64,000 bases of DNA from a virus: positions 1 to 64,000 of IMG/VR virus record IMGVR_UViG_3300028563_000011; one strand, written 5' to 3'. Under the pieces are notes generated by a model. The model was not told the origin of the DNA, did no database searches, and saw only the letters and a program-made list of their open reading frames with translations. A program made the translations under genes and the position numbers. Each line of letters opens with the position of its first letter. Within the stretch, counting starts at the first letter, position 1. Below are positions 5,180 through 20,261 of the stretch, piece after piece.

Positions 5180-5728
5180 ATGATGACCCTCAATACCGAA
5201 GCCAACACCACCGACACCAACAAGTCCGAGGCGTCCTCCGTTGCCAAGGCACTGCTCGATGCAGTCAACGCCAAGGCGAAGAAGGCCAATCGGGCCGAAC
5301 GGCGCGCGGCGGCGAAGGCCATGGCGAAGGCTTCCAAGGAAGCGGCGCAGGTTGCTTCCGAGGTTGCTCCGGCTGCTCCGGCGCCGGTTCAGGAAGTCAA
5401 GTCCCCGGAAGTGCCGGTCCAACTCACGGCCAGCACGCGGGACTATGCTTCCATGCGCCGTTTCATAAAGAAGTACGGGCGCAGCGCGGTGGAAGGCGCC
5501 TTGCGTGAGGTTGCCAAGGAAGTCAGCGGCCGACGGATCTTTGCGCCGACGGACGTCATCACGCTTCTGAAGGCGGAAAATCCGCACGCTCGCGGCACCA
5601 AGAACTGGAAGCGTTGGAACAAGTACCGCAATGGGATGACCGTTGCGGAAGCGGTGAAGGCGGGCATCGAGCGCGCCAACATCCGTTACCTCAACAGCAT
5701 CAATTACATCGCGGTCAGCGGTGGCTGA
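5180..5728 (+). CDS. Ala/Lys-rich basic hypothetical protein (182 aa)
   Basis: First gene of the rightward block. Residues 20-90 are rich in Ala, Lys and Pro (AKAKKANRAERRAAAKAMAK), probably a disordered or helical basic arm. Residues 85-182 form a compact basic domain with FIKKYGRSAVEGALREVAKE and NWKRWNKYRNGMTVAEAVKAG, which looks like a helical nucleic-acid-binding domain. It starts at ATG 5180 after TATAGGAGAGAGAACT; a second ATG follows directly. Codon use is much GC-richer than most neighbours. Possibly an early host-takeover or nucleoid-associated protein (inference). Confidence 0.7.
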   Translation: MMTLNTEANTTDTNKSEASSVAKALLDAVNAKAKKANRAERRAAAKAMAKASKEAAQVASEVAPAAPAPVQEVKSPEVPVQLTASTRDYASMRRFIKKYGRSAVEGALREVAKEVSGRRIFAPTDVITLLKAENPHARGTKNWKRWNKYRNGMTVAEAVKAGIERANIRYLNSINYIAVSGG

Positions 5729-5773
5729 GTGCAGCTAGGGCGGTCCCCGTAGGGACCGCCTTATGGTGTACTC
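5727..5773 (+). promoter_or_regulatory. intergenic hairpin element 1
   Basis: Outer stem GAGTGCA/TGTACTC, inner stem GGCGGTCCC/GGGACCGCC, five-prime internal-loop side GCTAG. It overlaps the upstream stop codon and ends 16 nt before the next ATG. Member of the repeated family described in the findings. Confidence 0.75.
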
Positions 5774-5788
5774 CATAGGAGAGAGAAC

Positions 5789-5965
5789 ATGTTGTACTAC
5801 GAAGAGATTTACAACTTCCTGTATATGAGTAGCTACTCCGAAGCGGAGAAAGCACGAGCTCGGTGCGAGATCACGCATATGTCGGATCAAGACTGGAACG
5901 ATTGGGTCAGTTACCGTAACCAACGCCGACGGCAGGAAGCTCACCAATCCAAAGCATGTGTTTAG
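5789..5965 (+). CDS. small hypothetical protein (58 aa)
   Basis: Begins ATG TTG TAC TAC GAA 5 nt after ATAGGAGAGAGA. The product starts MLYYEEIYNFLYMSSYSE and ends with a basic Arg-rich stretch (NQRRRQEAHQS). Helical, soluble and unrecognised. It lies between hairpin elements 1 and 2. Confidence 0.6.
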   Translation: MLYYEEIYNFLYMSSYSEAEKARARCEITHMSDQDWNDWVSYRNQRRRQEAHQSKACV

Positions 5966-5981
5966 CTTTGGACGGTTTGAG

Positions 5982-6022
5982 GTAGCAGCTAGCGTAGCCT
6001 ACGGGCTACGTCAGGGTGCTAC
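5982..6022 (+). promoter_or_regulatory. intergenic hairpin element 2
   Basis: Outer stem GTAGCA/TGCTAC (different bases from element 1, pairing kept), inner stem CGTAGCC/GGCTACG, internal loop GCTAG and TCAGGG. A further hairpin GAGTCAAGT/ACTGACTC follows before the SD. Confidence 0.75.
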
Positions 6023-6088
6023 TGCACCACGACCGGACCTGAGTCAAGTCCCAAAACTGACTCAACTCATCTTATAGGAGAGAGAACC

Positions 6089-6349
6089 ATGAGCTTGCAA
6101 GAAACACGTCGTGAGACCGTCAAGGAACGGCTGGCCCGGTTGGAAGCCGAAAATGAACGGCTAAATGCCGCCATCCGCAAGAAGTCTTCTAGCAATCTTC
6201 GGCTGGCGTTGGGGAACAAGAGGAATATCTCCCTCTACGGTCTCCAGAAGTGGCCCGTGACGTTCTATCGGGATCAATGGGAAAAGATCCTAGACATGGC
6301 GGATGAAATCCGTGAGTTCATCAAGAACAATCAAGACAAACTCGCCTAA
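6089..6349 (+). CDS. coiled-coil hypothetical protein (86 aa)
   Basis: Residues 8-35 (TVKERLARLEAENERLNAAI) have leucine heptads typical of a short parallel coiled coil. A basic segment follows, then an acidic amphipathic helix. Probably an oligomeric small phage protein. Starts after TATAGGAGAGAGAACC. Confidence 0.65.
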   Translation: MSLQETRRETVKERLARLEAENERLNAAIRKKSSSNLRLALGNKRNISLYGLQKWPVTFYRDQWEKILDMADEIREFIKNNQDKLA

Positions 6350-6362
6350 AGGGAGCTTCCTC

Positions 6363-6452
6363 ATGTTCTTCAGTTGGAAAGGCGCAACCGATGGGTTAGT
6401 GTTGAACCTTGTGATTGTGCTAGCAATCATGCTTGTTTTGCATTGGCTTTGA
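6363..6452 (+). CDS. 29-aa single-membrane-segment peptide
   Basis: The frame reads MFFSWKGATDGLVLNLVIVL and then a further hydrophobic run ending HWL. GGGAG lies about 8 nt before the ATG. Residues 10-28 are a transmembrane helix. It follows the coiled-coil gene by 13 nt, so it is probably co-translated. Too small to assign. Confidence 0.5.
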   Translation: MFFSWKGATDGLVLNLVIVLAIMLVLHWL

Positions 6453-6456
6453 TCGG

Positions 6457-6502
6457 AGTGCAGCTAGGGCGGATCCTGGATGGATCCGCCTCAGGGTGCA
6501 TT
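6457..6502 (+). promoter_or_regulatory. intergenic hairpin element 3
   Basis: Outer AGTGCA/TGCATT (one G-U), inner GGCGGATCC/GGATCCGCC, loop sides GCTAG and TCAGGG. Compared with element 1, two inner base pairs changed on both strands. Confidence 0.75.
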
Positions 6503-6552
6503 ACCGCACCAATACGGTGGAAATGGTTCCACCAAAGAGGAGAGTGAAGATC

Positions 6553-6837
6553 ATGACCGCAATGGACAACCTTCAGAGCCAAGGCTACCCGGACCAGGAC
6601 AACGTCTCCAACTTGGAGCAGGACCAGGCCCGTGTGGATGCCCTCCGTGAGGACTTCCTGGAAGCCGACGCCGAAGGTGATACGGCCCGTGCCGACCAGG
6701 ACGTGGCGGAAGCTGAGGCAATCATGGCCCAGGACCCTGCCGTCGATCCGGATGGGTCGGACGATGACGATAACGATGCTGACGACAACATCAGCACCGA
6801 TGACGGCGTCAGTGACGAAGTCGAGGGCGATCTCTAA
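6553..6837 (+). CDS. very acidic small protein (94 aa)
   Basis: The start is the ATG at 6553 after AGAGGAGAG; the frame is open further upstream but has no ribosome-binding site (RBS) there. The protein is dominated by Asp/Glu, with residues 60-80 nearly all Asp (PDGSDDDDNDADDNIS). Such DNA-mimic-like acidic proteins are common among phage inhibitors of nucleases or DNA-binding proteins. That role is inference from composition only. Confidence 0.65.
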   Translation: MTAMDNLQSQGYPDQDNVSNLEQDQARVDALREDFLEADAEGDTARADQDVAEAEAIMAQDPAVDPDGSDDDDNDADDNISTDDGVSDEVEGDL

Positions 6838-6846
6838 TCGCCTTTG

Positions 6847-6893
6847 AGTGTAGTCAGGGGGGTGCCTGAAAGGGCACCTCCTCAGAGTGCACT
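6847..6893 (+). promoter_or_regulatory. intergenic hairpin element 4
   Basis: Outer AGTGTA/TGCACT, inner GGGGGTGCC/GGCACCTCC with G-U, three-prime loop TCAGAG. No gene with an SD follows before element 5, so two elements stand in tandem. Confidence 0.6.
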
Positions 6894-6956
6894 TTATTTT
6901 GAGAGATTTATGGTAGCATAAAGACCTAGATGAAAGGTTTTTATGGTACCACCGCG

Positions 6957-7001
6957 AGTGTAGCCAGGAAGGTGCCTTCGGGCACCTTCTCAGGGGGCAC
7001 T
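6957..7001 (+). promoter_or_regulatory. intergenic hairpin element 5
   Basis: Outer AGTGTA/GGCACT (last pair lost), inner GAAGGTGCC-TTCG-type loop-GGCACCTTC. It precedes the gene at 7036. Confidence 0.6.
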
Positions 7002-7035
7002 TTGAAAACACCAAGCATAGGAGAGAGAATCAATC

Positions 7036-7227
7036 ATGGCTTCCAATGCCAAGTCCGACAAGAAGGATCGCCACAGCAAGAGCAAGCAAAACTTGCGGTA
7101 CATAAATGAACGGCGACACGCCAAGTCGCACGTCAAAAGGTTGAAGAAGCATTTGGAAACTCAACCTGACGACAAACTTGCGAAGATCGCTTTGGCAAAA
7201 TACAAGATCGAAGCTGGGGTCTCTTAA
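7036..7227 (+). CDS. Lys-rich basic hypothetical protein (63 aa)
   Basis: Start after ATAGGAGAGAGAATCAATC. Highly basic (KSDKKDRHSKSKQN, then RRHAKSHVKRLKKHLE), with a predicted long helix. Probably binds nucleic acid. Unrecognised. Confidence 0.6.
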   Translation: MASNAKSDKKDRHSKSKQNLRYINERRHAKSHVKRLKKHLETQPDDKLAKIALAKYKIEAGVS

Positions 7228-7271
7228 GTCCAACTAGGGCGGTCCCTACGGGATCGTCTCAGGATGCACTT
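7226..7271 (+). promoter_or_regulatory. intergenic hairpin element 6
   Basis: Outer AAGTCCA/TGCACTT, inner GGCGGTCCC/GGGATCGTC, where two pairs have become G-U instead of breaking. Loop sides ACTAG and TCAGGA. Confidence 0.7.
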
Positions 7272-7294
7272 AAGCATCACATAGGAGAGAGACC

Positions 7295-7423
7295 ATGGGG
7301 CGTTTTGAAACGCCGGATCAAGATAACACCCAAGTCAAGGTTGGCTTGGCGGCAGGCATGTTTTATGGCTTCGCCATAGCCGGGGTTTTTCTGCTGCTGG
7401 CCTGGTTGGCCTCAGGAGGTTGA
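7295..7423 (+). CDS. 42-aa single-pass membrane protein
   Basis: ATG 7295 follows ATAGGAGAGAGACC. Residues 1-17 are polar and 18-39 (GLAAGMFYGFAIAGVFLLLA) form one transmembrane helix. One of several tiny membrane proteins in this block. No family recognised. Confidence 0.55.
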   Translation: MGRFETPDQDNTQVKVGLAAGMFYGFAIAGVFLLLAWLASGG

Positions 7424-7428
7424 GCGTA

Positions 7429-7474
7429 AGTGCAGTGCAGCGCAGTCTTACCTTAGACTGCGTCACGGTGCACT
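7429..7474 (+). promoter_or_regulatory. intergenic hairpin element 7 (variant loop)
   Basis: Outer AGTGCA/TGCACT, inner CGCAGTCT/AGACTGCG. The internal loop is GTGCAG opposite TCACGG instead of CTAG opposite TCAGGG, a second loop type shared with 13855 and 18750. Confidence 0.7.
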
Positions 7475-7512
7475 CATACCGAGTGTCCCCAACCCGGAAA
7501 GTAGGAGAGAGG

Positions 7513-7830
7513 ATGACGAAAGAACATTCCCATACAAATGGGCATATGGGGCATTTTGACTTTGTGGAAATCAAGTCCACGGATGAAAGGCTTCATGGCC
7601 CATATCCAGTGATCCTTGATGTTGGATCCTTCATCTGGATCCCAGCGTCACAGGATATCACAGCCATCCCGGAAGTCCAGCTTGTCACAGACGGACGTAG
7701 CTCAGGCCTAGACGGTGATGGAAATTGCATCGCAAGCGTTCCTGCGGCGTGGTGTTCCTTCATCTCTGAAGCTCAGGCCATCGATCTGGCCGAAAGCCTA
7801 CAAAGGAAGGAGGAACCTGCCTCCGCCTAA
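7513..7830 (+). CDS. hypothetical protein (105 aa)
   Basis: The true start is the ATG at 7513 after GTAGGAGAGAGG. His-rich N-terminus (EHSHTNGHMGHFDF), then a beta-rich globular body with several Trp and Pro and an acidic helical tail. Soluble and unrecognised. Confidence 0.6.
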   Translation: MTKEHSHTNGHMGHFDFVEIKSTDERLHGPYPVILDVGSFIWIPASQDITAIPEVQLVTDGRSSGLDGDGNCIASVPAAWCSFISEAQAIDLAESLQRKEEPASA

Positions 7831-7832
7831 CC

Positions 7833-7891
7833 GAGTGTGACGAAGCACAGTCTCCTTTTTTCACAGGGGGAGACTGTGTCACGATGCACTC
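7833..7891 (+). promoter_or_regulatory. intergenic hairpin element 8
   Basis: GAGTG/TGCACTC outer pairing with a long inner stem GCACAGTCTCC/GGAGACTGTG and a 10-12-nt loop. Three-prime loop side TCACGA. Confidence 0.6.
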
Positions 7892-7921
7892 TTGTGGCAT
7901 CTTATAGGAGAGAGAACCCCA

Positions 7922-8185
7922 ATGAAAGAGATCAAAAGTCAGGAACATCTGGACAACATGGCTAGAAAAGGAACCCCAGCCCGTTACTGGGTTGGTCACG
8001 TTCCGGGCAAGGATGATTTTGGGATCCCCATCATCGACGTTTTCTACGATGGGAAGACCAGGGCTGGTCCCTGGGCCTTTATGACCCCGGCCGCCTTCGC
8101 GAACTATGGCGTTGGTCTTGGAACAGGGCGAGGCCAGAAATACGAGCGTCAGGCTGACGGTCGTTGGCTCAAAACGGAGGGTTAA
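7922..8185 (+). CDS. hypothetical protein (87 aa)
   Basis: Start at ATG 7922 after ATAGGAGAGAGAACCCCA. Globular and Gly-rich with GTPARYWVGHVPGKDD and FMTPAAFANYGVG. No motif recognised. The next gene begins 5 nt after its stop. Confidence 0.6.
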   Translation: MKEIKSQEHLDNMARKGTPARYWVGHVPGKDDFGIPIIDVFYDGKTRAGPWAFMTPAAFANYGVGLGTGRGQKYERQADGRWLKTEG

Positions 8186-8190
8186 AACAA

Positions 8191-8508
8191 ATGATCTCTC
8201 CGATTACGGCGCGCCGTGCCTTGGCCTTTAAGGCTGCAACTGATGGTCAGTTGAAGTTAACCGAAGAAGAGAAGGCTCGGTGGGAGCCTTTCCTCCACCA
8301 CACTTGGCAAGCCATTGGTCCGGATGCAGAGCAATTTGTCAGCAAGGGCCGTGGGCGAATTGCGGAGATCATTGAGCTTTGCCTTGATGCTAACCGCATG
8401 ACCACCTTTTCGAACATCACCCCTGAAGAAGAGGGGGTGTTGTGCGGTCTATGGGTCAAGAAAGACCGTAAGACCATGCAATGGTTACGGAAGACGTTGA
8501 ACTACTAA
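8191..8508 (+). CDS. hypothetical helical protein (105 aa)
   Basis: ATG 8191 with GGAGG about 10 nt upstream inside the previous gene's end, so translation is probably coupled. All-helical soluble protein with ITPEEEGVLCGLWVKKDRKT. Unrecognised. Confidence 0.6.
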   Translation: MISPITARRALAFKAATDGQLKLTEEEKARWEPFLHHTWQAIGPDAEQFVSKGRGRIAEIIELCLDANRMTTFSNITPEEEGVLCGLWVKKDRKTMQWLRKTLNY

Positions 8509-8557
8509 AAGTACAACTAGCGCAGTCTCTTAACTGAGACTGCGTCAGGGTGTACTT
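8509..8557 (+). promoter_or_regulatory. intergenic hairpin element 9 (best example)
   Basis: Perfect outer AAGTACA/TGTACTT and inner CGCAGTCTC/GAGACTGCG with ACTAG opposite TCAGGG. A second small hairpin GTACA-TC-TGTAC (8562-8573) lies just before the SD. Nearly identical to element 12138-12183. Confidence 0.8.
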
Positions 8558-8588
8558 GAGTGTACATCTGTACCATAGGAGAGAGAAC

Positions 8589-8852
8589 ATGCTAGGCGAT
8601 GAGGAAGAGTGTGGAGCACTTACCAAGAAAATGCGAACATGGCTGGTGTTGTACTTTATGGCCGTTTTCGCTTCTACAGGGTACTTCTACAAGTACGACT
8701 GTGCTGACCCATCAACTCCAAATGACACACCTCGTGGGCTTTGCGCAGGGCTTATGGCTTTGGCCCTGCCGATAACCGGCCCTATGTCCTTTTCCGTCCA
8801 ACTGTGGACAAATGGGTTGCCCTTCTCGTTAAGTATCAAACCCAAAGACTGA
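8589..8852 (+). CDS. two-helix membrane protein (87 aa)
   Basis: Start ATG 8589 after CATAGGAGAGAGAAC. Hydrophobic segments at about residues 18-35 (WLVLYFMAVFASTGYFY) and 52-72 (LCAGLMALALPITGPM). They are separated by a short loop with Cys and Pro, consistent with an inner-membrane protein. Unrecognised. Confidence 0.6.
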   Translation: MLGDEEECGALTKKMRTWLVLYFMAVFASTGYFYKYDCADPSTPNDTPRGLCAGLMALALPITGPMSFSVQLWTNGLPFSLSIKPKD

Positions 8853-8900
8853 AGTACAACTAGGGTGGTGTTGAAGAAAGCACCACCTCAGGGTGTACTT
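8852..8900 (+). promoter_or_regulatory. intergenic hairpin element 10
   Basis: Outer AAGTACA/TGTACTT as in element 9, but the inner stem is replaced by GGTGGTG/CACCACC. The outer stem and CTAG/TCAGGG loop are kept while the inner stem differs fully. Confidence 0.8.
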
Positions 8901-8929
8901 AAGTACACTTCTACCATAGGAGAGAGAAC

Positions 8930-9187
8930 ATGAAAAAGCAGCAGACCCAGCTTAAGGCTGGAATGCGAGTCACTATCAGTGGCGGGATGGAAGAATTCCG
9001 CGGCAAACGTGGCGTTATCATCAACACCGAACGCCTCATTGGGGATGTCGGTGGCTTGATGTACCGTGTCAGGCTTGATGAGCCTGTTGAAATCCCCGGC
9101 TTGGGCAAGGTCGAAGATGACGTCTGGGCTGTTGATAGACTTCAACCCCTGAAAGAAGAAACCACAGCGGCCGTACGTCGGTACTGA
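8930..9187 (+). CDS. KOW/SH3-like small protein (85 aa)
   Basis: Residues 8-75 read like a small beta-barrel: LKAGMRVTISGGMEEFRGKR, GVIINTE, YRVRLDEPV, DDVWAVDRLQPL. The Gly-rich turn after the second strand is typical of KOW/SH3-like folds that bind RNA or protein. This is a fold-level guess. Confidence 0.55.
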   Translation: MKKQQTQLKAGMRVTISGGMEEFRGKRGVIINTERLIGDVGGLMYRVRLDEPVEIPGLGKVEDDVWAVDRLQPLKEETTAAVRRY

Positions 9188-9213
9188 TCCAGCACAGAGG
9201 GTATCGAATAAGC

Positions 9214-9259
9214 ATTGCAAGCTCGGTGGTTACTTACGAGTAATCACCAGGGTTGCAAT
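9214..9259 (+). promoter_or_regulatory. intergenic hairpin element 11 (ATTGCAA type)
   Basis: Outer ATTGCAA/TTGCAAT, inner GGTGGTTACT/AGTAATCACC, loop sides GCTC and AGGG. A different outer-stem sequence but the same architecture. Confidence 0.75.
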
Positions 9260-9286
9260 CCTGCGACCTCATAGGAGAGAGATCTT

Positions 9287-10762
9287 ATGTTAAAGACAAA
9301 GGTACCTGCAAAGAAGGTTCCTGCCGTTGAGGCCCACAATTGGTCTCAGTACGAAGGAGGCGTCAAGTTTGACGGCCAGCACATTGTGCTGCCTGCAAAC
9401 CCAGAAGAAATGCCTCTTGACGTGGCTGAAGACCACATCCGGCGCCTTCGTCAAGACCAAGAACAGAAATACCGGTTCTTCGAGAAAATCGATGCCTACC
9501 CGCACGATGCGGCCGTTGCCTTTCAACGGGCGATGGTGAATTTGTTCGGGTGGTCGTCGCCACAGTCCATGATGACTTGGTTCGGGAAGCGTCCGCCGGA
9601 AATGTTGCGTGTGAGTACCGGTCCCGGACCGAATGATTTCGTTCAGGTCCCTCAGGGCTCCTTCAAGGTCCCAAACATCGAGGACGATATCCAGGCTGCT
9701 ATCAATACCGATGAGAACTTCTTCTACATCACAGCGAGCATCAAGAAAAAGGATCAGCCCAAGATGGTTCGGCTGGTCGAAGAAACTCGACGGCTTGTCC
9801 GCGAGGAAAGCATCTATCGCGGGAAGGCCATCCAACTGCGGGTGGACGAAGACGGTGACCTGATGGTCAGGAAACCACCAGAGTTCATCGACGCGACCAA
9901 GTCAGTGCCGGTCATCTTGGATGATTTGGTAATGAATCAAGTGAAAGACAATCTCTTGGTTCCCATCAAATTCACCCAACAAGTCAAGGCTTTGGGGATC
10001 CCTCTGAAAAGGGGAGTCCTGCTCGAAGGCCAATACGGTACTGGCAAGACCCTCATCGCCAAGCTTGTGGCGAATGTGTGTTACGAGAACGGCTGGACCT
10101 ACATCCTGCTGGATCGTATCCAGGGTCTCCGTGCGGCGCTGGAATTCGCCAAAAGGTACTCGCCGGCAGTGGTCTTTGCTGAAGATATCGACCGTATCGC
10201 CGACGAACGTGACGATGATACCAATGACCTCATCAACACGATCGACGGGGTGGTGTCGAAAGACAGCGAGATCATGACGGTTCTCACCACCAACTTCGTG
10301 GAGAAACTGGACCCAGTAATCCTTCGCCCCGGTAGACTGGACGCGGTAATCTCTATCCGTGCTCCTCAAGCCGAAGCTGTGGAACGGCTGATCCGGTTCT
10401 ATGCCGGTGAGTTGCTTGACAAGGACGAAAATCTGGCATCACTCAAGGATGTCTTAAAGGGACAGATCCCTGCAACCATCCGTGAGGTGGTGGAACGGTC
10501 CAAGTTGGGCAGTATCGGACGTGGAGCTTCAACGCTGTCCGCCAACGACCTGCTGGTCTCGGCGGAGACCATGAAGAATCACATGGCTCTGTTGGCTCCG
10601 AAGCTGCCGCCACAAACGGCAGCTGAGAAGTTGTCTGAAGGGCTTCAGGAAGTCCTTCACATCGGCAATGGGTCCACCGACTACGAGGGTTTGGCTGAAG
10701 GCTTAGCCGACCAAATCAACAAGCGTGGGGGCATGATGATTATGTCTCCCAAGAAGAACTAA
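9287..10762 (+). CDS. AAA+ ATPase (491 aa)
   Basis: Residues 1-200 are an alpha/beta N-domain that I do not recognise. One AAA+ module follows: Walker A GQYGTGKT at about 248-255, Walker B VVFAEDID at about 294-301, sensor 1 around TTNF, and second-region-of-homology RPGRLD near 347-352. The core resembles the Cdc48/Vps4/FtsH classic clade. There is no protease domain, zinc motif or membrane helix, so it probably remodels proteins as a hexamer. It has its own SD block and is flanked by hairpins 11 and 12. Codon use is GC-rich. Partner unknown. Confidence 0.85.
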   Translation: MLKTKVPAKKVPAVEAHNWSQYEGGVKFDGQHIVLPANPEEMPLDVAEDHIRRLRQDQEQKYRFFEKIDAYPHDAAVAFQRAMVNLFGWSSPQSMMTWFGKRPPEMLRVSTGPGPNDFVQVPQGSFKVPNIEDDIQAAINTDENFFYITASIKKKDQPKMVRLVEETRRLVREESIYRGKAIQLRVDEDGDLMVRKPPEFIDATKSVPVILDDLVMNQVKDNLLVPIKFTQQVKALGIPLKRGVLLEGQYGTGKTLIAKLVANVCYENGWTYILLDRIQGLRAALEFAKRYSPAVVFAEDIDRIADERDDDTNDLINTIDGVVSKDSEIMTVLTTNFVEKLDPVILRPGRLDAVISIRAPQAEAVERLIRFYAGELLDKDENLASLKDVLKGQIPATIREVVERSKLGSIGRGASTLSANDLLVSAETMKNHMALLAPKLPPQTAAEKLSEGLQEVLHIGNGSTDYEGLAEGLADQINKRGGMMIMSPKKN

Positions 10763-10768
10763 AGCCTT

Positions 10769-10817
10769 TTGTAAGCTCGATGTCCCGTCAAAAGTCGGCG
10801 GGGCATCAGGGTTGCAA
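10769..10817 (+). promoter_or_regulatory. intergenic hairpin element 12
   Basis: Outer TTGTAA/TTGCAA, inner GATGTCCCG/CGGGGCATC, loop sides GCTC and AGGG. Follows the AAA+ stop. Confidence 0.7.
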
Positions 10818-10892
10818 TCGTGCAGCCAATCAGGTCCACTGCAACTTTCTTAGGTCCTGAATCATCACCCAGATGAGAGGAGGAGAAGGGTC

Positions 10893-10970
10893 ATGACTAT
10901 TCATCACCACTGTGCTCTGTGTGCGTACGGGTACATCCTCGCCTTGATGGTGGGAACCCTCCCTTGGTAA
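10893..10970 (+). CDS. 25-aa peptide
   Basis: ATG 10893 follows AGGAGGAGAAGGGTC, a strong SD. The product begins MTIHHHCALCAYGYILAL and ends TLPW. Short with a hydrophobic centre. The good SD and position 13 nt before the DUF2061 gene support translation; it may also act as a leader peptide. Confidence 0.45.
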   Translation: MTIHHHCALCAYGYILALMVGTLPW

Positions 10971-10983
10971 TGGAGACAAAAAC

Positions 10984-11223
10984 ATGTCTGCAATTCGCAG
11001 TCATTCGCAATCCCTTGCCAAAGCCGTGTCCTGGCGGTTGGTCGGCAGCGTTGATACTTTCGTTGTCGCTTTCGTCCTTACTGGCCATCCAGGAGCAGCC
11101 GGAGCAATTGCTTCGACTGAGGTTCTCACGAAGACTGTTCTGTACTACCTCCATGAGCGGGTCTGGCTGATCCGTCAATGGGGCGGAAGGAAGGTGCCCG
11201 ATGATCAAGAAAGTCATGACTAA
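10984..11223 (+). CDS. DUF2061 membrane protein (79 aa)
   Basis: Matches the DUF2061 pattern throughout: AKAVSWRLVGSVDTFVVAF, then ASTEVLTKTVLYYLHERVW. Residues 20-37 and 42-60 are membrane helices. The family consists of small inner-membrane proteins of unknown function found in bacteria and phages. Start ATG 10984 after GGAGACAAAAAC. Confidence 0.85.
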   Translation: MSAIRSHSQSLAKAVSWRLVGSVDTFVVAFVLTGHPGAAGAIASTEVLTKTVLYYLHERVWLIRQWGGRKVPDDQESHD

Positions 11224-11389: not shown

Positions 11390-11392
11390 AAG

Positions 11393-11554: not shown

Positions 11555-11566
11555 CAACATAGCACG

Positions 11567-12813: not shown

Positions 12814-12819
12814 AAGGCT

Positions 12820-13849: not shown

Positions 13850-13854
13850 ACAAA

Positions 13855-13904: not shown

Positions 13905-13930
13905 GGGTACCACTTATAGGAGAGAAGATC

Positions 13931-14233: not shown

Positions 14234-14235
14234 CA

Positions 14236-14284
14236 AAGTACAACTAGGTGAGCCTGCCTTTTAGGGCTCACTCAGGGTGTACTT
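14236..14284 (+). promoter_or_regulatory. intergenic hairpin element 19
   Basis: Outer AAGTACA/TGTACTT, inner GGTGAGCC/GGCTCACT, ACTAG opposite TCAGGG. The inner stem is shared with 19509 but not with 8509. Confidence 0.75.
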
Positions 14285-14314
14285 AAACAATGCACCGTAT
14301 AGGAGAGAGCAAAG

Positions 14315-14779
14315 ATGTCACAATCAAACCCAATAGACCCTTGGTTCGAACGTCCCTTGGACCACCGAGCGCCTAAGGGTGGGGAGGAAGGTGTCAATGG
14401 TCATCACTACAAAGGTGGGGAGTTCTTACCTTTCTACGTACCTAGGCCAGTGATGCCTCAAATTGAGCATCACGACCTGAACGCCTTGATCCGGTTTGTG
14501 AGGGAAAAGGGAGTATGGGCCCGTAGGAGGATCTATACTCCATTAGAACTCCACAACCATCAACGCATCAATTGGGACGCTAGCCGCTGGAAACCCCAGC
14601 TAGGACGCTTCCCGGTACTTGTGTCTGTGGATAAGTTCATCCTCGACGGGAATCATCGTTGGTACGGGCACCTGAAGGAAGGAACCCCAGTTCCAGTCGT
14701 CCAATTTGGTTTGGCGTTTGAGCCGGCCATAGCCCTCCTCTTCAAATTCCCTCGAACATCTTCAGGAGCTCGACAATGA
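14315..14779 (+). CDS. ParB-fold (ParB/Srx) protein (154 aa)
   Basis: Residues 95-130 (RFPVLVSVDKFILDGNHRWY) carry the D-G-N-H-R signature of the ParB/sulfiredoxin nucleotide-binding fold. The rest is short and lacks the DNA-binding C-domain of plasmid ParB. Such phage proteins may be CTPases or nucleases. The next gene starts inside its stop (ATGA). Confidence 0.7.
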   Translation: MSQSNPIDPWFERPLDHRAPKGGEEGVNGHHYKGGEFLPFYVPRPVMPQIEHHDLNALIRFVREKGVWARRRIYTPLELHNHQRINWDASRWKPQLGRFPVLVSVDKFILDGNHRWYGHLKEGTPVPVVQFGLAFEPAIALLFKFPRTSSGARQ

Positions 14780-15006
14780 GGAAAAGGAAAGCAAACTTGC
14801 TTCCAGACACACGTCCTCGTTGGGACGACCCTGACTTAAGATGTTCTTACGGGAAGTACAAAGAGGGAAAGTCTGCATTAGATGTACAACGAGGCTGTAA
14901 GCATCGTATGCACGACCTTTTACCTGAGTGGGACCCTTCACCTGAGTGGTATGCTGACCCATCCTATTTTTGGGGTTGTAGGAACAAAGGAGATCAAAGT
15001 GAATGA
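14776..15006 (+). CDS. hypothetical protein (76 aa)
   Basis: ATGA overlap with the ParB-fold gene. Basic N-terminus (MRKRKANLLPDTRPRWDDPD), Trp/Tyr-rich C-terminus and two isolated Cys. Unrecognised. Confidence 0.6.
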   Translation: MRKRKANLLPDTRPRWDDPDLRCSYGKYKEGKSALDVQRGCKHRMHDLLPEWDPSPEWYADPSYFWGCRNKGDQSE

Positions 15007-15256
15007 GCAAATCATAGCTAAACTAGGGTATTCCCCAGCTAAACAGCTTCCATCAGGAGAATGGGCCGGGGTGATGGATATGCTTTTCACTGTTGGCCTT
15101 TTTGTTGGAATAGACATGGTAGGTTGGCGTACTCGATATTGTTTCCCCAATCGTGCGGCTGCTGAAGCCGCTTTGAAAGCTTGGGATGGGGAAGGCTTTC
15201 CACCAGGTTATTGGATCAAACAAAAGCCGGAAGACATATCTAACCCCAATCTCTGA
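15000..15256 (+). CDS. hypothetical protein (85 aa)
   Basis: GTG start at 15000 with AAAGGAG about 7 nt upstream, overlapping the previous gene by 7 bp. Has one hydrophobic stretch (GVMDMLFTVGLFVGIDMVG), then AAAEAALKAWDGEGFPPGYW. Possibly membrane-associated. Unrecognised. Confidence 0.6.
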
Positions 15257-15310
15257 TTGTAGACTGATGGGCTACTTTTCTCTTTTCAAGTTAGCCCATT
15301 GGCGTGCAAT
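15256..15310 (+). promoter_or_regulatory. intergenic hairpin element 20
   Basis: Outer ATTGTA/TGCAAT, inner GATGGGCTA/TAGCCCATT with a long AT-rich loop. The following GTGCAATCCCTGCAC can form a second small hairpin before the SD. Confidence 0.55.
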
Positions 15311-15336
15311 CCCTGCACGTTATAGGAGAGAGAACA

Positions 15337-15876
15337 ATGATCAGTGCAACGTACTGTTGCGTTCCGGAAGGAATTCGTCCGATCTTTGACGTGGCACTAG
15401 AACTCACCTCAAAGCGATTGGGCATTGATGCCTACAATGCTACAATCAAGTTCCATCTGAGGCCCCCAGGCTTCACTTCAAAAGACACGCCTGAGGGTAT
15501 GTCAGAAGGTGGAGCCTTAGCGCCTTCTCTTTCGGAAGAGAATGCCAAGCGTGTGGAAAAGGGTCTGCCGCCGAAACTGTTTGACTTATCCATTACGGTT
15601 GATTCACCAACGCAAATGATGCTCGCTTTCGCGCATGAGATGATACACATCCGTCAGTGGTTAACGGGGGAACTAGCCATTAAGACTATGCGCAAAAGTT
15701 CCCCCAAAGAACTTCAGTACCTATACTACAATAGGGTTCCCATCAAGGATGAAATCCCTTATAAGGCCCGACCTTGGGAAACTGAAGCCCACAAGAAAAT
15801 GGATGAGTTGGCAGTTTGGTTGATGAGAGAATTGACCAAACACGAAGAGGAAATATTGGGTAAAGTGCGCCCTTAA
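15337..15876 (+). CDS. HExxH zinc metallopeptidase-like protein (179 aa)
   Basis: FAHEMIHIRQW near residues 101-111 is a classic HExxH zinc site, and PWETEAHKKM about 45 residues later offers the third ligand, as in SprT/gluzincin-like small peptidases. The N-terminal 90 residues are alpha/beta. No signal peptide, so it acts in the cytoplasm. Target unknown; phage metallopeptidases of this type may cleave host or defence proteins (inference). Start ATG 15337 after TATAGGAGAGAGAACA. Confidence 0.7.
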   Translation: MISATYCCVPEGIRPIFDVALELTSKRLGIDAYNATIKFHLRPPGFTSKDTPEGMSEGGALAPSLSEENAKRVEKGLPPKLFDLSITVDSPTQMMLAFAHEMIHIRQWLTGELAIKTMRKSSPKELQYLYYNRVPIKDEIPYKARPWETEAHKKMDELAVWLMRELTKHEEEILGKVRP

Positions 15877-15880
15877 AAGC

Positions 15881-15926
15881 AAGTGTAACTAGCACAGCCC
15901 TATTAGGGCTGTGTCAGGGTACACTT
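15881..15926 (+). promoter_or_regulatory. intergenic hairpin element 21
   Basis: Outer AAGTGTA/TACACTT, inner GCACAGCCC/GGGCTGTGT with a TATTA loop, ACTAG opposite TCAGGG. Confidence 0.8.
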
Positions 15927-15955
15927 AAATGTACCATTTGAAAAGGAGAGAGAAC

Positions 15956-16294
15956 ATGGATATCGAAAACCTTACGCTCAAACAGATCCGAGAAATCGGG
16001 TCTTTGTTTCAAGCTACTCCATCCAATACGGAAGGAGCCTGGAAAATTGGGCGGAATTACCTCATTCGTACCGTCACAATGTTCCAAACGGGTAGGCTGG
16101 TTGCGGTTTACCCCCAAGAACTGGTCCTTGAGGACGCCGCTTGGATCCCCGATACTGGACAGTTTGCTCAGGCCGTCGAGAAATCTCAATTCAAGGAAGT
16201 CGAACCCTTCCCTGATAACCGACAGGTTATTGTTGGCCGAGGTTCAGTGATTGACGCCGTGGAAATCCAAATCCTTCCAAGGTCAATCAAATGA
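15956..16294 (+). CDS. conserved phage protein (112 aa)
   Basis: The pattern IGRNYLIRTVTMFQTGRLVA, LEDAAWIPDTG, then VEPF and GRGSVIDA matches a small conserved protein I have seen in many tailed-phage genomes; function unassigned. Starts at ATG 15956 after AAAAGGAGAGAGAAC. Its TGA overlaps the ATG of the Ser-X repeat gene. Confidence 0.75.
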   Translation: MDIENLTLKQIREIGSLFQATPSNTEGAWKIGRNYLIRTVTMFQTGRLVAVYPQELVLEDAAWIPDTGQFAQAVEKSQFKEVEPFPDNRQVIVGRGSVIDAVEIQILPRSIK

Positions 16295-16446
16295 GTACCA
16301 TTTCGATACTAGGGTCTAGGTCTTGGTCTTGGTCTTGGTCTGGGTCTAGGTCTGGGTCTTGGTCTGGGTCTTGGTCTGGGTCTAGGTCTAGGTCTAGGTC
16401 TAGGTCTGAGTCTAGGTCTTGGTCTTGGTCTGGGTCTACGAGTTAA
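16291..16446 (+). CDS. Ser-X dipeptide repeat protein A (51 aa)
   Basis: ATGA overlap with the upstream gene gives translational coupling. After the leader MSTISIL the whole protein is Ser alternating with Arg, Trp, Gly or Glu, encoded by TCT plus AGG, TGG, GGG or GAG. It ends in TAA. No known family. The leader is shared with repeat protein B (MSIISIL), which argues that this frame is translated. Likely disordered, cationic and aromatic. Confidence 0.6.
   Translation: MSTISILGSRSWSWSWSGSRSGSWSGSWSGSRSRSRSRSESRSWSWSGSTS
16312..16440 (+). repeat. GGTCTN hexamer array 1
   Basis: About 21 tandem 6-bp units GGTCTN with N being A, T or G but never C; one unit has GAGTCT. Occupies all of the coding sequence of repeat protein A after its leader. 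Confidence 0.9.
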
Positions 16447-16516
16447 GCGATTGTTACTCACTACAGTCTATCACAAGACTGTAGTAGGAAGCAATCAGAC
16501 AAGAAAAGAGAGATCA

Positions 16517-17164
16517 ATGGAGAAACTCTACCATGGGACGACCCTAACCCACTTACCTCAAATTATGGCAAAAGGAATAGTGCCTCGGGCCAAATCCAAG
16601 GTCAAAGGCAATTGGGAAGGTACCGTTAACAGCAACAGGAATGCGGTGTACCTAACAACTGCATATCCTTGGCACTTTGCAGCTGCTGCATCAAAGGATC
16701 AAATGGGTCTGGTTCTAGAGATCAAATCAGAAGAACTCTTACCCTTCAAACTTGCTCCTGATGAAGATTTCTTGGAGCAGCTAACCAGAAACATAGGACC
16801 ATCAGAGGCTGCGCCCAATCTTGCCCCTATTGATTGGGGTATGGTCAAAAGAACCAAGTTTTACCGCAAGGTCGCAAGGTTTAACCCCAACCTAGCCCCT
16901 ATTAGTTTGGCCAAGATGGGAACTGCGGCTTATTATGGTACCATCCCTTGGAGTGCTGTTTCACGCTATGTTATTATTGATTGGAGTAAGCTGCCTTGGC
17001 AACTAAAGCTTCAAGCAACTGATTCTCAAGTTAGCATCATCAATTACCAAGTCCTTTCAGAGAAGCACAATCAACGTGAAGGACTCAAAGTCGAAAATGT
17101 CGGAGGAAGTTATGCAAAAAGTTTGGGTAGTACGGACCATGGATTGGGAGGGAATTTGGATTAA
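16517..17164 (+). CDS. ADP-ribosyltransferase-like protein (215 aa)
   Basis: Start ATG 16517 after AAAAGAGAGATCA. The N-terminus LYHGTTLTHLPQIMAKGIVP and NAVYLTTAYPWHFAAAA (residues about 40-56) match the H-Y pattern of the KptA/ADP-ribosyltransferase fold. In that fold HGT binds NAD and the Tyr strand follows about 40 residues later. A catalytic Glu is not obvious, so activity is unsure. Phages use such enzymes to modify host polymerase or translation; this is inference. Confidence 0.55.
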   Translation: MEKLYHGTTLTHLPQIMAKGIVPRAKSKVKGNWEGTVNSNRNAVYLTTAYPWHFAAAASKDQMGLVLEIKSEELLPFKLAPDEDFLEQLTRNIGPSEAAPNLAPIDWGMVKRTKFYRKVARFNPNLAPISLAKMGTAAYYGTIPWSAVSRYVIIDWSKLPWQLKLQATDSQVSIINYQVLSEKHNQREGLKVENVGGSYAKSLGSTDHGLGGNLD

Positions 17165-17270
17165 CGCTTCATTTCATAGGACTGAGGCTGGAGCCTACAA
17201 AAAGGCACCAAGTGTAGCAGAGCGTTATGAAGCCCCAACCTATGTAACAAATTATATTCTTGAAGAGTAG
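17112..17270 (+). CDS. small hypothetical protein (52 aa)
   Basis: GGAGG about 6 nt before ATG 17112; overlaps the end of the ART-like gene by 53 bp. MQKVWVVRTMDWEGIWINAS begins a beta-hairpin-like product. Unrecognised. Confidence 0.55.
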   Translation: MQKVWVVRTMDWEGIWINASFHRTEAGAYKKAPSVAERYEAPTYVTNYILEE

Positions 17271-17310
17271 AGTTCATCGCAGCAGGCTTTTTAGATAGGA
17301 GAGAGACATC

Positions 17311-18252
17311 ATGACAAGGATGAACTTCGATAAAACAAGGCGCTCAAAACTCCTGGCTCAAACTCGGGCTTCCTCCCCTGACCCCAGGTTTAATTATCTG
17401 GCAAAGGAACAAGAAGTTCTAGTGATGCCAACAAAGGAACCAGCCATGGGTTTAACCAACACCCTCAAACCGACGGTGATGGAAATCACCCCAGAGCTAG
17501 CCACAAAATGGCTCGAAGGGAATGTCCATAACCGCAAACTCCGCCAGAAGGAGGTTGACCGCCTTGCACGTGAAATGAAAGGTGGGCGTTGGGCTCTTAA
17601 TGGGGAGTCCATCATCTTCGCTAGCGATGGGACATTGCTAGATGGACAACACAGGCTCTGGGCTTGTGTTGAAAGTCAGGTAACTTTCCAGTCCGTTGTG
17701 GTATACGGAGCGGATGCCTCCTCATTTACCACGATTGACCAAGGGCGTCATCGTTCGCCGGCCAACCACCTGGAAGTGGCACGTGTCCAATCGAACTACA
17801 CAACAACTGTTGCTGCGGTTGCTTCCATTATTATCCGTTACCGCACCAACAATATCTTCTCTAACGAGAAGGTAAATCCTGCGGATCTTGTCGAACTGGT
17901 CAAAACGAACCCCGAAATCGTTGAATGGGTCAATAAGGCCAGAAAGGCTCCAAAAGGGCTCAAGGGAAGTGCGTCATCAATCGCTACTGTTCTTTACCTG
18001 GGCAGCCGGTATCTGCCAAATGAGGCTGAAGCCTTCCTACACCACTGGGTCACAGGTTCTGACTTAGCAACAGGATCTCCCATCCTAACGCTCCGTCAAC
18101 GGGTCCTGACCGCAAAACCCCCAGCTTCGCAATGGGAACGGCTCTTCTTGGTTGTAAGCGCGTGGAATGCTTACGCTGAGAAACGTCCTCTTTATAAGAT
18201 GGGCAGCTTGCGTGGGGATAAGTTTCCTGGCATTGTTGGTTACGAAAAATAA
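17311..18252 (+). CDS. ParB-like phage protein (313 aa)
   Basis: Residues 50-135 show the phage ParB-like pattern: ITPELATKWLEGNVHNRKL, then MKGGRWALNGESI and GTLLDGQHRLWAC. DGQHR corresponds to the catalytic or nucleotide-binding motif of the ParB/Srx fold. Residues 150-313 are a helical C-domain. Similar proteins occur widely in siphophages; role uncertain. Start after ATAGGAGAGAGACATC. Confidence 0.8.
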   Translation: MTRMNFDKTRRSKLLAQTRASSPDPRFNYLAKEQEVLVMPTKEPAMGLTNTLKPTVMEITPELATKWLEGNVHNRKLRQKEVDRLAREMKGGRWALNGESIIFASDGTLLDGQHRLWACVESQVTFQSVVVYGADASSFTTIDQGRHRSPANHLEVARVQSNYTTTVAAVASIIIRYRTNNIFSNEKVNPADLVELVKTNPEIVEWVNKARKAPKGLKGSASSIATVLYLGSRYLPNEAEAFLHHWVTGSDLATGSPILTLRQRVLTAKPPASQWERLFLVVSAWNAYAEKRPLYKMGSLRGDKFPGIVGYEK

Positions 18253-18253
18253 G

Positions 18254-18312
18254 AGTGCAACTAGCACGGTCTTAGGGGGAAGAATATACTTAAGACCGTG
18301 TCAGGGGGCACT
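18254..18312 (+). promoter_or_regulatory. intergenic hairpin element 22
   Basis: Outer AGTGCA/GGCACT, inner GCACGGTCTTA/TAAGACCGTGT with a long loop, ACTAG opposite TCAGGG. Confidence 0.75.
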
Positions 18313-18338
18313 TAAGCGCCATATAGGAGAGAGAACGG

Positions 18339-18599
18339 ATGAGAAAAGAACTTGAATACGTTCAAATACCACCCAATGAAGCACCAATTACAGAGCTCTG
18401 GGCTTGGTTGTCAATTGATGACAAAGGCAATGAAGGAATTGTTGCCTTTGAATTGTCCAATAAGACTTGGATGTCTGTTACGTCAAAGCGGCGTATAGCG
18501 GAAAAGATGCGGCCCTTTGTACAAGAAGTCGTAGAACGCTCTGGACTTCGGGTGCGGCTTGTAAAGTTCACCACCAAGGAAGTGGTCGAAGAAAACTAA
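18339..18599 (+). CDS. hypothetical protein (86 aa)
   Basis: ATG 18339 after TATAGGAGAGAGAACGG. Alpha/beta product with GNEGIVAFELSNKTWMSVTS and a helix EKMRPFVQEVVERSG. Unrecognised. Directly followed by a non-coding structured segment. Confidence 0.6.
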   Translation: MRKELEYVQIPPNEAPITELWAWLSIDDKGNEGIVAFELSNKTWMSVTSKRRIAEKMRPFVQEVVERSGLRVRLVKFTTKEVVEEN

Positions 18600-18600
18600 T

Positions 18601-18746
18601 CTCTTTAGGAGAGAACCCACCAAGGCCGTATGTATACGTACAGATTGGCCAAGCTCGGTGGTCAAGGAAGCCCCTACGGGGGAACTTCCACTCTCCTATA
18701 CGGCGATGGCAGGCCGTCGTCCGAGATTAGTCTGCCCTTCCTTTTT
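18601..18746 (+). ncRNA. structured RNA with sequestered SD and terminator
   Basis: Begins with an AGGAGAG block (18607-18613) like a gene start, but no ATG/GTG frame follows. AGGAGAG can pair with CTCTCCT (18691-18697). Inside are CCACC/GGTGG (18617-18621 with 18657-18661), GGAAG-CCCC/GGGG-CTTCC (18666-18689) and alternative CCGTAT/ATACGG. It ends with GGCAG/CTGCC (18708-18712 with 18732-18736) then CTTCCTTTTT, a likely terminator. Looks like a ~145-nt multibranched RNA. Confidence 0.5.
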
Positions 18747-18749
18747 CTG

Positions 18750-18798
18750 AGTATAGTGCAGCGCAGTCTCTTAAATTGAGACTGCGTCACGGTACACT
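18750..18798 (+). promoter_or_regulatory. intergenic hairpin element 23 (variant loop)
   Basis: Inner CGCAGTCTC/GAGACTGCG, loop GTGCAG opposite TCACGG, outer AGTATA/TACACT with one mismatch. Almost a copy of 13855-13904, including the downstream TTGGGTACCACTTATAGGAG. Confidence 0.75.
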
Positions 18799-18828
18799 TG
18801 GGTACCACTTATAGGAGAGAAGATCAGC

Positions 18829-19122
18829 ATGAGTCTTGCAGATAAACTTGGGTTTGGCCCAAAGCGAGAGCTAACTGCTCTTGGCGATGGGATGTACCTA
18901 CTTAAAGTCACCCCACCAAGTTGGTCCCATTTTTCCCCCTCAACCATTCGTTTGACGGAAGATCAGGTCAAACGATATGAGCGGTGGCTTACCGACGATA
19001 CCCTCATACAAGATGCTTTCCCTGAGTTGAGTCTGGACCAACGGGAAATCCTCCTGTCCGGAATTGGACCGGGGGAGTTCAGCGAAGCTTTCAAAGACAA
19101 CGAAGAGGACCAAAATGGCTGA
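18829..19122 (+). CDS. hypothetical protein (97 aa)
   Basis: ATG 18829 after TATAGGAGAGAAGATCAGC. Polar alpha/beta protein with IRLTEDQVKRYERWL and acidic C-terminus KDNEEDQNG. Overlaps the next gene by 8 bp. Confidence 0.6.
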   Translation: MSLADKLGFGPKRELTALGDGMYLLKVTPPSWSHFSPSTIRLTEDQVKRYERWLTDDTLIQDAFPELSLDQREILLSGIGPGEFSEAFKDNEEDQNG

Positions 19123-19300
19123 TATCCAAAAAGACCGTGACCACACCAAAGCTGCACCCGTCAAAAAGAAATGTGTAGGGGGTTGCACACACCCCTTCCA
19201 GGATGAGCGATACGGTAAAGGCGTTCGCCTTATGAACCCAATCGCTTCGGGCGGTTTCCCCAAATACCGCTGCACCGTCTGCAGCCGTGAACAAGACTAA
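19115..19300 (+). CDS. Cys-rich zinc-finger-like phage protein (61 aa)
   Basis: Start ATG 19115 within the previous gene's end. KKKCVGGCTHPFQDERYGKG, then YRCTVC, gives a four-Cys zinc-binding pattern seen in small conserved phage proteins. Probably a treble-clef-like knuckle; function unknown. Confidence 0.7.
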   Translation: MADIQKDRDHTKAAPVKKKCVGGCTHPFQDERYGKGVRLMNPIASGGFPKYRCTVCSREQD

Positions 19301-19314
19301 GAGGAGGTACTGTG

Positions 19315-19509
19315 ATGAACTTTCAAGCTCTTTCAATACTCATGAACGACCCAACAAAGTTGTCAATAAAACCAGGAGCAGATAACCCAGAAAAAGACAC
19401 TAGGCACTTTGGAGCCTACATTACCGTAACACTTGGACTTTCAAGTAAGACTTTCTTTATTGGTGTGGACACTAGCACTGGTAAAGATGTAATCGAGCAA
19501 GTTGAGTAA
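19315..19509 (+). CDS. hypothetical protein (64 aa)
   Basis: GAGGAGGTACTGTG before ATG 19315 is a consensus SD. Beta-rich product (FGAYITVTLGLSSKTFFIGV). Unrecognised. Confidence 0.6.
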   Translation: MNFQALSILMNDPTKLSIKPGADNPEKDTRHFGAYITVTLGLSSKTFFIGVDTSTGKDVIEQVE

Positions 19510-19558
19510 AGCACAGCTAGGTGAGCCTGCCTCTTTTAGGCTCACTCAGGGTGTACTT
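19509..19558 (+). promoter_or_regulatory. intergenic hairpin element 24
   Basis: Outer AAGCACA/TGTACTT (one C-A mismatch), inner GGTGAGCC/GGCTCACT, GCTAG opposite TCAGGG. Confidence 0.7.
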
Positions 19559-19587
19559 TTGCACCGTTTATAGGAGAGAGAAATGAC

Positions 19588-19956
19588 ATGGACCTATTTA
19601 AGATAGAATGTTTCGTGGAGGACAAGCGCCTAGCGCAAGTCCACCGCGCGCTATCGGGGTTAGTTTACGAACTCCAAACAACCCCTGTCACCAATGTGAC
19701 TCAGACCGAAGATGGTGCCTTAAAGGCCAAAAGCCATACAGGATCCTTTGGTGCGGTTCTAAAGAGCCTAAAATTGGGCCAAACCTTCACTTCTAAGGAG
19801 GTTAGAGACCGTTTGGTTGCTGAAGGATATTCGGATCAGCGCCATCACGGTGTCCTACACCAACTGACAAAGTCAGGAGTCATCAAACGTGTTGGAACGG
19901 GTAAGTACCAACTGACGCAACCCAACACCAAATCCAAGGCTCGGAGAAAAGCATGA
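19588..19956 (+). CDS. winged-helix-like regulator (122 aa)
   Basis: ATG 19588 after TATAGGAGAGAGAAATGAC. Residues 60-110 (GQTFTSKEVRDRLVAEGYSD, then VLHQLTKSGVIKRVGTGKYQ) read as helix-turn-helix plus wing. The basic tail TKSKARRKA could contact DNA. Overlaps the XRE-type gene by ATGA, so two regulators are made together. Confidence 0.65.
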   Translation: MDLFKIECFVEDKRLAQVHRALSGLVYELQTTPVTNVTQTEDGALKAKSHTGSFGAVLKSLKLGQTFTSKEVRDRLVAEGYSDQRHHGVLHQLTKSGVIKRVGTGKYQLTQPNTKSKARRKA

Positions 19957-20213
19957 GCAAACCTACCACCAAGAAAGGTCCTTTGAAGCTCTACAAATCG
20001 TATATCTTCAAAGAAAAAGATCCTGTTATTGATCAACTGCGAACGGTTGTTCAAGACTCCAAGAAGAGCTACGGAGAGATCCATGCCCTGTCTGGGGTCA
20101 GCGTTTCGGCAATCAACGGTTGGTTCAACGGGGTTACAAAACGGCCCCAATTTGCTACCGTTAACGCCGTGGCTAGTGCTTTGGGCCAAGAGTTCAAACT
20201 TACCAAGAAGTGA
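19953..20213 (+). CDS. XRE-family HTH protein (86 aa)
   Basis: Residues 38-80 (SYGEIHALSGVSVSAINGWF, then TVNAVASALGQEFKL) match the Cro/C1 helix-turn-helix fold. Short and lacking a dimerisation domain, as in Cro-like regulators. Coupled to the winged-helix gene. Targets unknown; the inverted repeat just downstream is one possibility. Confidence 0.75.
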   Translation: MSKPTTKKGPLKLYKSYIFKEKDPVIDQLRTVVQDSKKSYGEIHALSGVSVSAINGWFNGVTKRPQFATVNAVASALGQEFKLTKK

Positions 20214-20261
20214 TTGTAAAGTCAATAGGGCTGAGCAATTGGCCCTATTAGCGTTTCAATC
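20212..20261 (+). promoter_or_regulatory. intergenic hairpin element 25 (last)
   Basis: Outer GATTG/CAATC, inner AATAGGG/CCCTATT. The conserved loop is lost. It is the last hairpin of the series; genes to the right mostly overlap instead. Confidence 0.45.

Follow-up and report, generated by a model that had tools for sequence, protein, structure and literature searches.

Covarying intercistronic RNA elements with two alternative hairpins in the early genes of a metagenomic phage

What are the hairpins that punctuate the early genes of a phage known solely from metagenomes? The window analyzed here, bases 1 to 64,000 of the 110,591-base virus record IMGVR_UViG_3300028563_000011, has such hairpins at the junctions of a rightward gene block, small genes for the most part, that spans 5.2 to 20.3 kb. 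We found that these elements can form an RNA hairpin A and, at most junctions, an alternative hairpin B. Both covary, the two exclude each other, they hold a defined position between neighboring genes, and they are conserved in a second phage. The virus is best explained as a tailed phage and the elements as intercistronic RNA devices of its early genes.

An earlier note, made from the sequence alone, had described about 25 intergenic hairpins of one architecture. A mechanical scan for stem, internal loop, and stem from 5.18 to 20.28 kb gave 26 nonoverlapping matches on the plus strand, 15 of them with AGGG, ACGG, or CAGG in the 3' loop. In 30 Markov simulations the mean was 4.5 matches (maximum, 9), or 1.0 with the 3' loop motif (maximum, 4), and the minus strand gave 14 matches, none with the motif. 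Scan and folding together place 26 plus-strand elements between 5.7 and 20.3 kb, bearing out the earlier count. A covariance model, R1, was built from 23 of them and used to search the whole 110,591-base genome. It recovered its 23 elements with E values of 2e-13 to 2e-4 and element 11824-11868 weakly (E value of 0.32); elements 15256-15310 and 20211-20262 share the architecture and gave no match. The rest of the genome yielded no further match except one antisense echo of the first element. Most elements start between 3 nucleotides (nt) inside the stop codon and 6 nt past it, a minority lying 9 to 26 nt away, and downstream of most stands the ribosome-binding cassette ATAGGAGAGAG, for which the chance expectation is 1.4 copies in the whole window.

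Hairpin A consists of an outer stem of 6 to 7 base pairs (bp), an internal loop, and an inner stem of 7 to 12 bp, usually 9 to 10, closed by a variable loop. Its 5' strand typically measures 6 to 7, 4 to 6, and 8 to 11 nt in these three parts, or about two helical turns, with a shorter example at 5982 and a longer one at 13136. Within the internal loop, a purine stands opposite G (or A or C), two base pairs follow, and A and G then face U, C, and A. The loop had been given as usually CTAG/TCAGGG, which is exact in about ten elements; the remainder carry other loops, and the stem sequences quoted in the same place are correct. Variants comprise GTGCAG/TCACGG (three elements), GCGAAG or ACGAAG/TCACGR (two), GTCAG/TCAGAG (one), and GCCAG/TCAGGG (one), together with a short-loop class, GCTC opposite AGGG or TGGG, at 9214, 10768, 11567, and 12819, to which 16449 is similar. 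Neither the UC nor the AG part of the motif is present in the short-loop elements. The CTAG/TCAGGG loop itself holds two further covarying pairs, found as CT/GG, TC/GA, TG/CG, CG/CG, or CC/GG in the window and as CA/TG in the second phage, and in this register 97% of cells are paired, versus 77% after swapping. An alternative register of these two pairs (loop3 positions 3-4) was tried and rejected, with 64% of cells paired, no better than swapped.

Covariation was measured in two alignments, A1 with 23 rows, all window elements, and A3 with 18 window elements and six from the second phage. In A1, 90% of cells are paired, versus 71% when shuffled, all 16 pairs are altered on both sides in some row, and the covariation score is 0.597, versus 0.238 when shuffled and at most 0.17 when slid. 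In A3, 97.6% of cells are paired and both sides vary in 14 of 16 pairs; the score reaches 0.743, versus 0.254 shuffled and at most 0.21 slid. Arms likewise paired better with their own partners than with swapped ones (z scores of 5.7 for the outer and 10.0 for the inner stem). Since the elements in the window are paralogues and some hardly differ, the counts from shuffling should not be read as probabilities; the slid controls and the second genome serve as safeguards against this kinship. Two hand-typed dissections (7228 and 9214) are one base off at their ends, which leaves the stem pairing counts unaffected. These data support pairing of hairpin A at the RNA level, and the covariation claimed earlier stands. 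The same result bears on whether the elements are DNA-level repeats, either operator-like inverted repeats or spreading mobile repeats, as their confinement to one operon and the near-identical pairs 8510/12138 and 13856/18750 might suggest. Operators keep their sequence, whereas here the stems vary yet pair and all copies lie on one strand; this explanation is effectively refuted by the covariation, and we consider it improbable in the extreme.

The earlier note described hairpin A and missed a second hairpin. In hairpin B, the 3' arm of the outer stem and the final two internal-loop bases can pair with a segment of 5 to 7 nt just before the Shine-Dalgarno sequence, ending in most cases 2 to 8 nt before AGGAG. 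Examples are GGTACActtaaaTGTACC (15918-15935), GGTTGCaatcctGCAACC (12866-12883), and GATGCacttaaGCATC (7263-7278), and B is clear at about 20 of the 26 window elements. When downstream segments were swapped among the window elements, the mean helix score fell from 11.6 to 8.1 (z score of 4.6) and the mean folding energy weakened from -7.5 to -5.1 (z score of -6.9), and none of 20,000 permutations matched the elements' own pairing. Bases that pair in B only also change together: at 7227 and 7834, the final loop base is A for G and the downstream base T for C (GATGC/GCATC).

Both hairpins recur in a second phage, a distant relative. Exact-pattern scans of IMG/VR for ribosome-binding cassettes and for TCAGGGTGYACT..GGAGAGA led to L008, part of record IMGVR_UViG_3300021420_000001 (111,480 bases), and otherwise gave mostly single matches, judged to be chance. 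Model R1 matched two places in L008, and the region read contains seven elements, each before repeated CATAGGAGAGAG cassettes. Hairpin B is present and covaries at all seven, with B-only changes of C for G and downstream G for C (GCTGC/GCAGC and GCTGTAC/GTATGGC). The swap test gave z scores of 3.3 and -4.1 for L008 by itself (0 of 20,000 permutations) and of 6.1 and -7.7 for both genomes jointly. Protein identity between the two phages ranges from 43% for an SbcC-like protein, a helicase, and an 850-residue protein that we take to be probably a DNA polymerase to 54% for the terminase.

Other searches defined the limits of this distribution. The helicase/capsid relatives G001 and G019 to G022 gave no match to RNA model R1 or R2, and the capsid relatives L029 to L038 contained no elements within the stretches read. 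Megablast with the 5- to 20-kb region and distant blastn with one element found nothing among 50,697 phage records, the AAA+ ATPase and a ParB-like protein used as bait retrieved no useful viral contig, and a scan of a genome collection gave one weak match, a Bacteroidales assembly without elements. A search against Rfam had been called for earlier; Rfam 15 gave no match at the gathering score and no credible family match at relaxed thresholds. The elements are undescribed in the literature searched.

Relatives G020 and G001 carry their own repeated ribosome-binding cassettes, several of them preceded by simple GC-rich hairpins between stop codon and Shine-Dalgarno sequence, and this arrangement is possibly the ancestral state. 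Such plain hairpins at the same kind of junction would fit a reading of the elements as simple 3'-end stabilizers or weak attenuators between genes, with B as a by-product of the arm sequence. We think this very unlikely, as the covarying outer stem and the pairing of B, both apparently selected, are superfluous for a plain hairpin and no U-tract lies downstream. Among other relatives, repeated ribosome-binding cassettes of their own (CACAGGAGAAGA; CACACAGGAG), several after plain hairpins, are seen in L086, L040, and L041. Promoter-like repeated blocks (TTGCGTTAGTA .. CTTACACATAATGnnTAGGCAG and variants), some of which come after GC-rich hairpins, occur in L086 upstream of 11677, 12401, 16149, and 17788 and in L041 upstream of 2006 on the minus strand.

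Hairpins A and B are mutually exclusive, since the 3' arm of the outer stem takes part in each. Their predicted mean energies are -27.7 kcal/mol for A and -24.2 kcal/mol for the B state, a gap of about 3.5 that is zero in some elements, and neither fold sequesters the Shine-Dalgarno sequence. A C.C or T.T mismatch recurs at outer pair 4 (8950-8994, 9362-9412, and 9836-9881 in L008 and 7227-7270 in the window), weakening A and leaving B intact. The closeness of the two states in energy and this mismatch would suit a bistable translational switch that operates without cleavage: a terminating ribosome would mask the 5' arm of the outer stem together with part of the loop, the freed 3' arm would form B beside the Shine-Dalgarno sequence, and the choice between A and B would couple or uncouple translation of the neighboring genes. 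In most elements the stop codon indeed lies at most 6 nt from the outer arm or overlaps it. However, good B hairpins exist at 9214, 11567, and 13136 despite distances of 12 to 26 nt from the stop codon, the near-invariant AG/UCA loop is left unexplained, and with the Shine-Dalgarno sequence free in both folds an on/off logic is hard to see. We regard such a switch as the main rival of the explanation given next, plausible but rather unlikely.

The explanation that we consider best, and to which we give about an even chance, is processing that cleaves each junction and caps both products. Before processing, every junction of the polycistronic early mRNA would fold as hairpin A. A double-strand-specific RNase of the host, most likely RNase III by analogy with T7, would then make a single cut in the 3' strand of the internal loop, near UCA^NG. 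With this cut, the upstream mRNA would end soon past its stop codon in the stable inner hairpin, which could block 3' exonucleases. In most elements B begins at a near-invariant G one base past UCA; therefore, a cut there leaves a 5'-terminal hairpin. The downstream mRNA would thus open with the freed 3' arm refolded into B, 0 to 1 nt from the new 5' end, where B may hide the 5'-monophosphate from RNase E-type 5'-end-dependent decay while the ribosome-binding site stays open. RNase E and RppH require an unpaired 5' end, which accounts for the stabilization of mRNA by 5' structure (PMC3997798). A phage-encoded RNase III was considered and rejected, as searches of the phages yielded no RNase III domain, and a host enzyme is therefore assumed. 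Cutting, its position, the enzyme, and the protection are all inferred here. The broader proposal, a new family of phage cis-acting RNAs in which a single cut provides a 3' cap upstream and a 5' cap downstream at most operon junctions in two lineages with proteins about 43 to 54% identical, is put forward tentatively, as a possibility a little short of even. Hairpin B and the same elements in a second phage lend sharper form to the maturation or translation-control module suggested earlier, and the interpretation given there is, as a whole, partly supported.

Several points weigh against cleavage and capping. About six junctions (5728, 6847, 6957, 16449, 18254, and 20211) have no B or a poor one; among them, 6847 is not directly followed by a ribosome-binding site, and the elements at 16449 and 20211 are divergent. 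The energy gap is small, so B might form without cutting, and comparable refolding is seen at one of five T7 sites (R1.1). Finally, the sequence conservation of the AG/UCA loop exceeds what RNase III should require, which suggests a specific protein or RNA motif. In alignment A3, the loop has three invariant positions, A and G in its 5' strand and A in its 3' strand, where U, C, and G are also nearly invariant. This invariance, across two phages whose replication and recombination proteins are about 43% identical, is what would be expected of a binding site at which a phage or host RNA-binding protein (a translational repressor, antiterminator, or localization factor) reads the internal loop, with the stems merely presenting it and B as the unbound state. 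No candidate protein was found, however, and the short-loop elements do without parts of the motif, and we judge a protein-binding site unlikely.

Table 1. Elements and ribosome-binding cassette of the rightward block (E, E value with model R1; pairs are given as 5' strand/3' strand; strong R1 matches are all elements but 14, 20, and 26)
Feature	Position	Strand	Remarks
Element 1	5728-5772	+	GCTAG/TTATGG loop; overlaps stop of open reading frame 5180-5728; B of just 3-4 bp; E 1e-10
Element 2	5982-6022	+	Outer stem GTAGCA/TGCTAC; B 6015-6028 (GGTGC/GCACC)
Element 3	6457-6502	+	B 6495-6510 (GGTGC/GCACC)
Element 4	6847-6893	+	Middle pairs TC/GA; no Shine-Dalgarno sequence directly downstream, no real B; first of tandem doublet
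Element 5	6957-7001	+	Middle pairs CC/GG; B absent
Element 6	7227-7270	+	C.C mismatch at outer pair 4; loop TCAGGA matched by B GATGC/GCATC (7263-7278)
Element 7	7429-7474	+	GTGCAG/TCACGG; alternative B GCACTC/GAGTGT
Element 8	7834-7890	+	ACGAAG/TCACGA; B GATGC/GCATC (7883-7901)
Element 9	8510-8556	+	B 8549-8568
Element 10	8853-8899	+	B 8892-8909
Element 11, short loop GCTC/AGGG	9214-9259	+	B GGTTGC/GCGACC (9251-9268)
Element 12, short loop	10768-10818	+	B GGTTGC/GCAGCC
Element 13, short loop	11567-11613	+	B GGTTG/CAACC
Element 14, divergent	11824-11868	+	E 0.32; B GGGAGCA/TGCTCTT
Element 15	12138-12182	+	B 12175-12194
Element 16, short loop GCTC/TGGG	12819-12874	+	B GGTTGC/GCAACC
Element 17	13136-13189	+	GCGAAG/TCACGG; outer stem AGCGTA/TGCGCT; B GGTGC/GCACC
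Element 18	13856-13903	+	GTGCAG/TCACGG; outer stem AGTGTA/TACACT; B GGTAC/GTACC
Element 19	14237-14283	+	B GGTGT/GCACC
Element 20, divergent	15256-15310	+	Structural match; B GCGTGCA/TGCACGT
Element 21	15882-15925	+	B GGTACA/TGTACC (15918-15935)
Element 22, short-loop-like	16449-16496	+	Directly 3' of TCTNGG-repeat open reading frame; no B
Element 23	18254-18312	+	B imperfect (G.G mismatch)
Element 24	18750-18798	+	B GGTAC/GTACC
Element 25	19510-19557	+	B GGTGTA/TGCACC
Element 26, last, divergent	20211-20262	+	Structural match; no B
Ribosome-binding cassette ATAGGAGAGAG	5165-19580	+	22 copies with at most 1 mismatch, before most genes of the block

The first gene of the operon has the cassette without hairpin A and a small leader hairpin upstream, both in the window (5120-5165) and in L008 (5727-5765). 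The early block also includes the AAA+ ATPase gene (9287-10762) and two membrane proteins, one with DUF2061 (10984-11223; E value of 7e-23) and one DoxX-like (12352-12813; E value of 5e-13), which we would not expect in a phage. Open reading frames 16291-16446, 20285-20524, and 22219-22443 consist almost entirely of a degenerate hexamer, TCTNGG, that is translated as (S-R/W/G/E)n; in the first of these, the opposite strand is open too, as (P-R)n.

How do these elements compare with known systems? No U-tract follows the outer stem or B, and the inner stem is followed by UCAGGG or variants; the elements thus fail as intrinsic terminators, as the earlier note had held. The start-associated and extended start-associated sequences (SAS/ESAS) of cluster K mycobacteriophages place a repeated ATAGGAG-containing cassette before many nonstructural genes, and about half of the cassettes have an inverted repeat upstream (PMC3203893). 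The likeness lies in a repeated cassette resembling a ribosome-binding site before starts, and the consensus differs (ATAGGAGAGAG here and GGGATAGGAGCCC there). The arms of ESAS keep one 17-bp consensus, and its authors note that departures from it give no support to RNA pairing, which they reject (PMC3203893), whereas the arms described here covary and contain no conserved 17-bp inverted repeat. The Pixie and TM4 ESAS that we refolded retain the TGTTGA..TCAACA consensus, and model R2 gave nothing significant on them. If the cut is at UCA^NG, hairpin B would resemble ompA-type stabilizing hairpins of bacterial mRNAs in standing at the extreme 5' end of an mRNA; it would differ from them in being incompatible with the outer stem of A and 5' terminal solely after processing.

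The early RNase III sites of T7 are likewise intercistronic, lie among early genes, and combine an inner stem of about 10 bp, an asymmetric internal loop, and an outer stem in an element of the same size. T7 sites R0.3, R0.5, R1, R1.1, and R1.3 fold with the anatomy of hairpin A, and at the cut positions used the cut lies about 3 nt beyond the inner stem; R0.7 did not fold this way at the position used. The T7 cut falls in the 3' strand of the loop and leaves a 3'-terminal hairpin, a place equivalent to the cut proposed at UCA^NG. Site R1.1 has an asymmetric loop of 4/5 nt and yields products of 47 and 13 nt (PMC6121014); it is cut at position 5887, and cleavage matures and protects T7 mRNA (PMC8708148). 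The downstream product of R1.1 can form a 5' hairpin at 5888-5909 of T7 (L039) (ATTGACC/GGTTAAT), and those of the other four early sites examined do not. The loop sequence of T7 is unrelated to that of the elements, and neither model R1 nor model R2 matched T7 positions 1 to 7500. The T7-type likeness proposed in the earlier note therefore holds for anatomy and size but not for homology of sequence or structure, and the anatomy partly supports the elements as candidate RNase III sites. T7 differs in having few sites, compared with 26 here that mostly adjoin stop codons, and in T7 the 3' arm does not systematically refold into a 5' hairpin. Even without the mechanism, the elements provide clear RNA covariation among paralogous copies inside one genome, and the three-way pairing (a, a', a'') makes the choice between A and B directly testable. 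If cleavage and capping is correct, the early operon would be a self-splitting array, each cut of which protects the two pieces it creates, a solution more elaborate than that of T7 and a potential part for balancing expression from one transcript.

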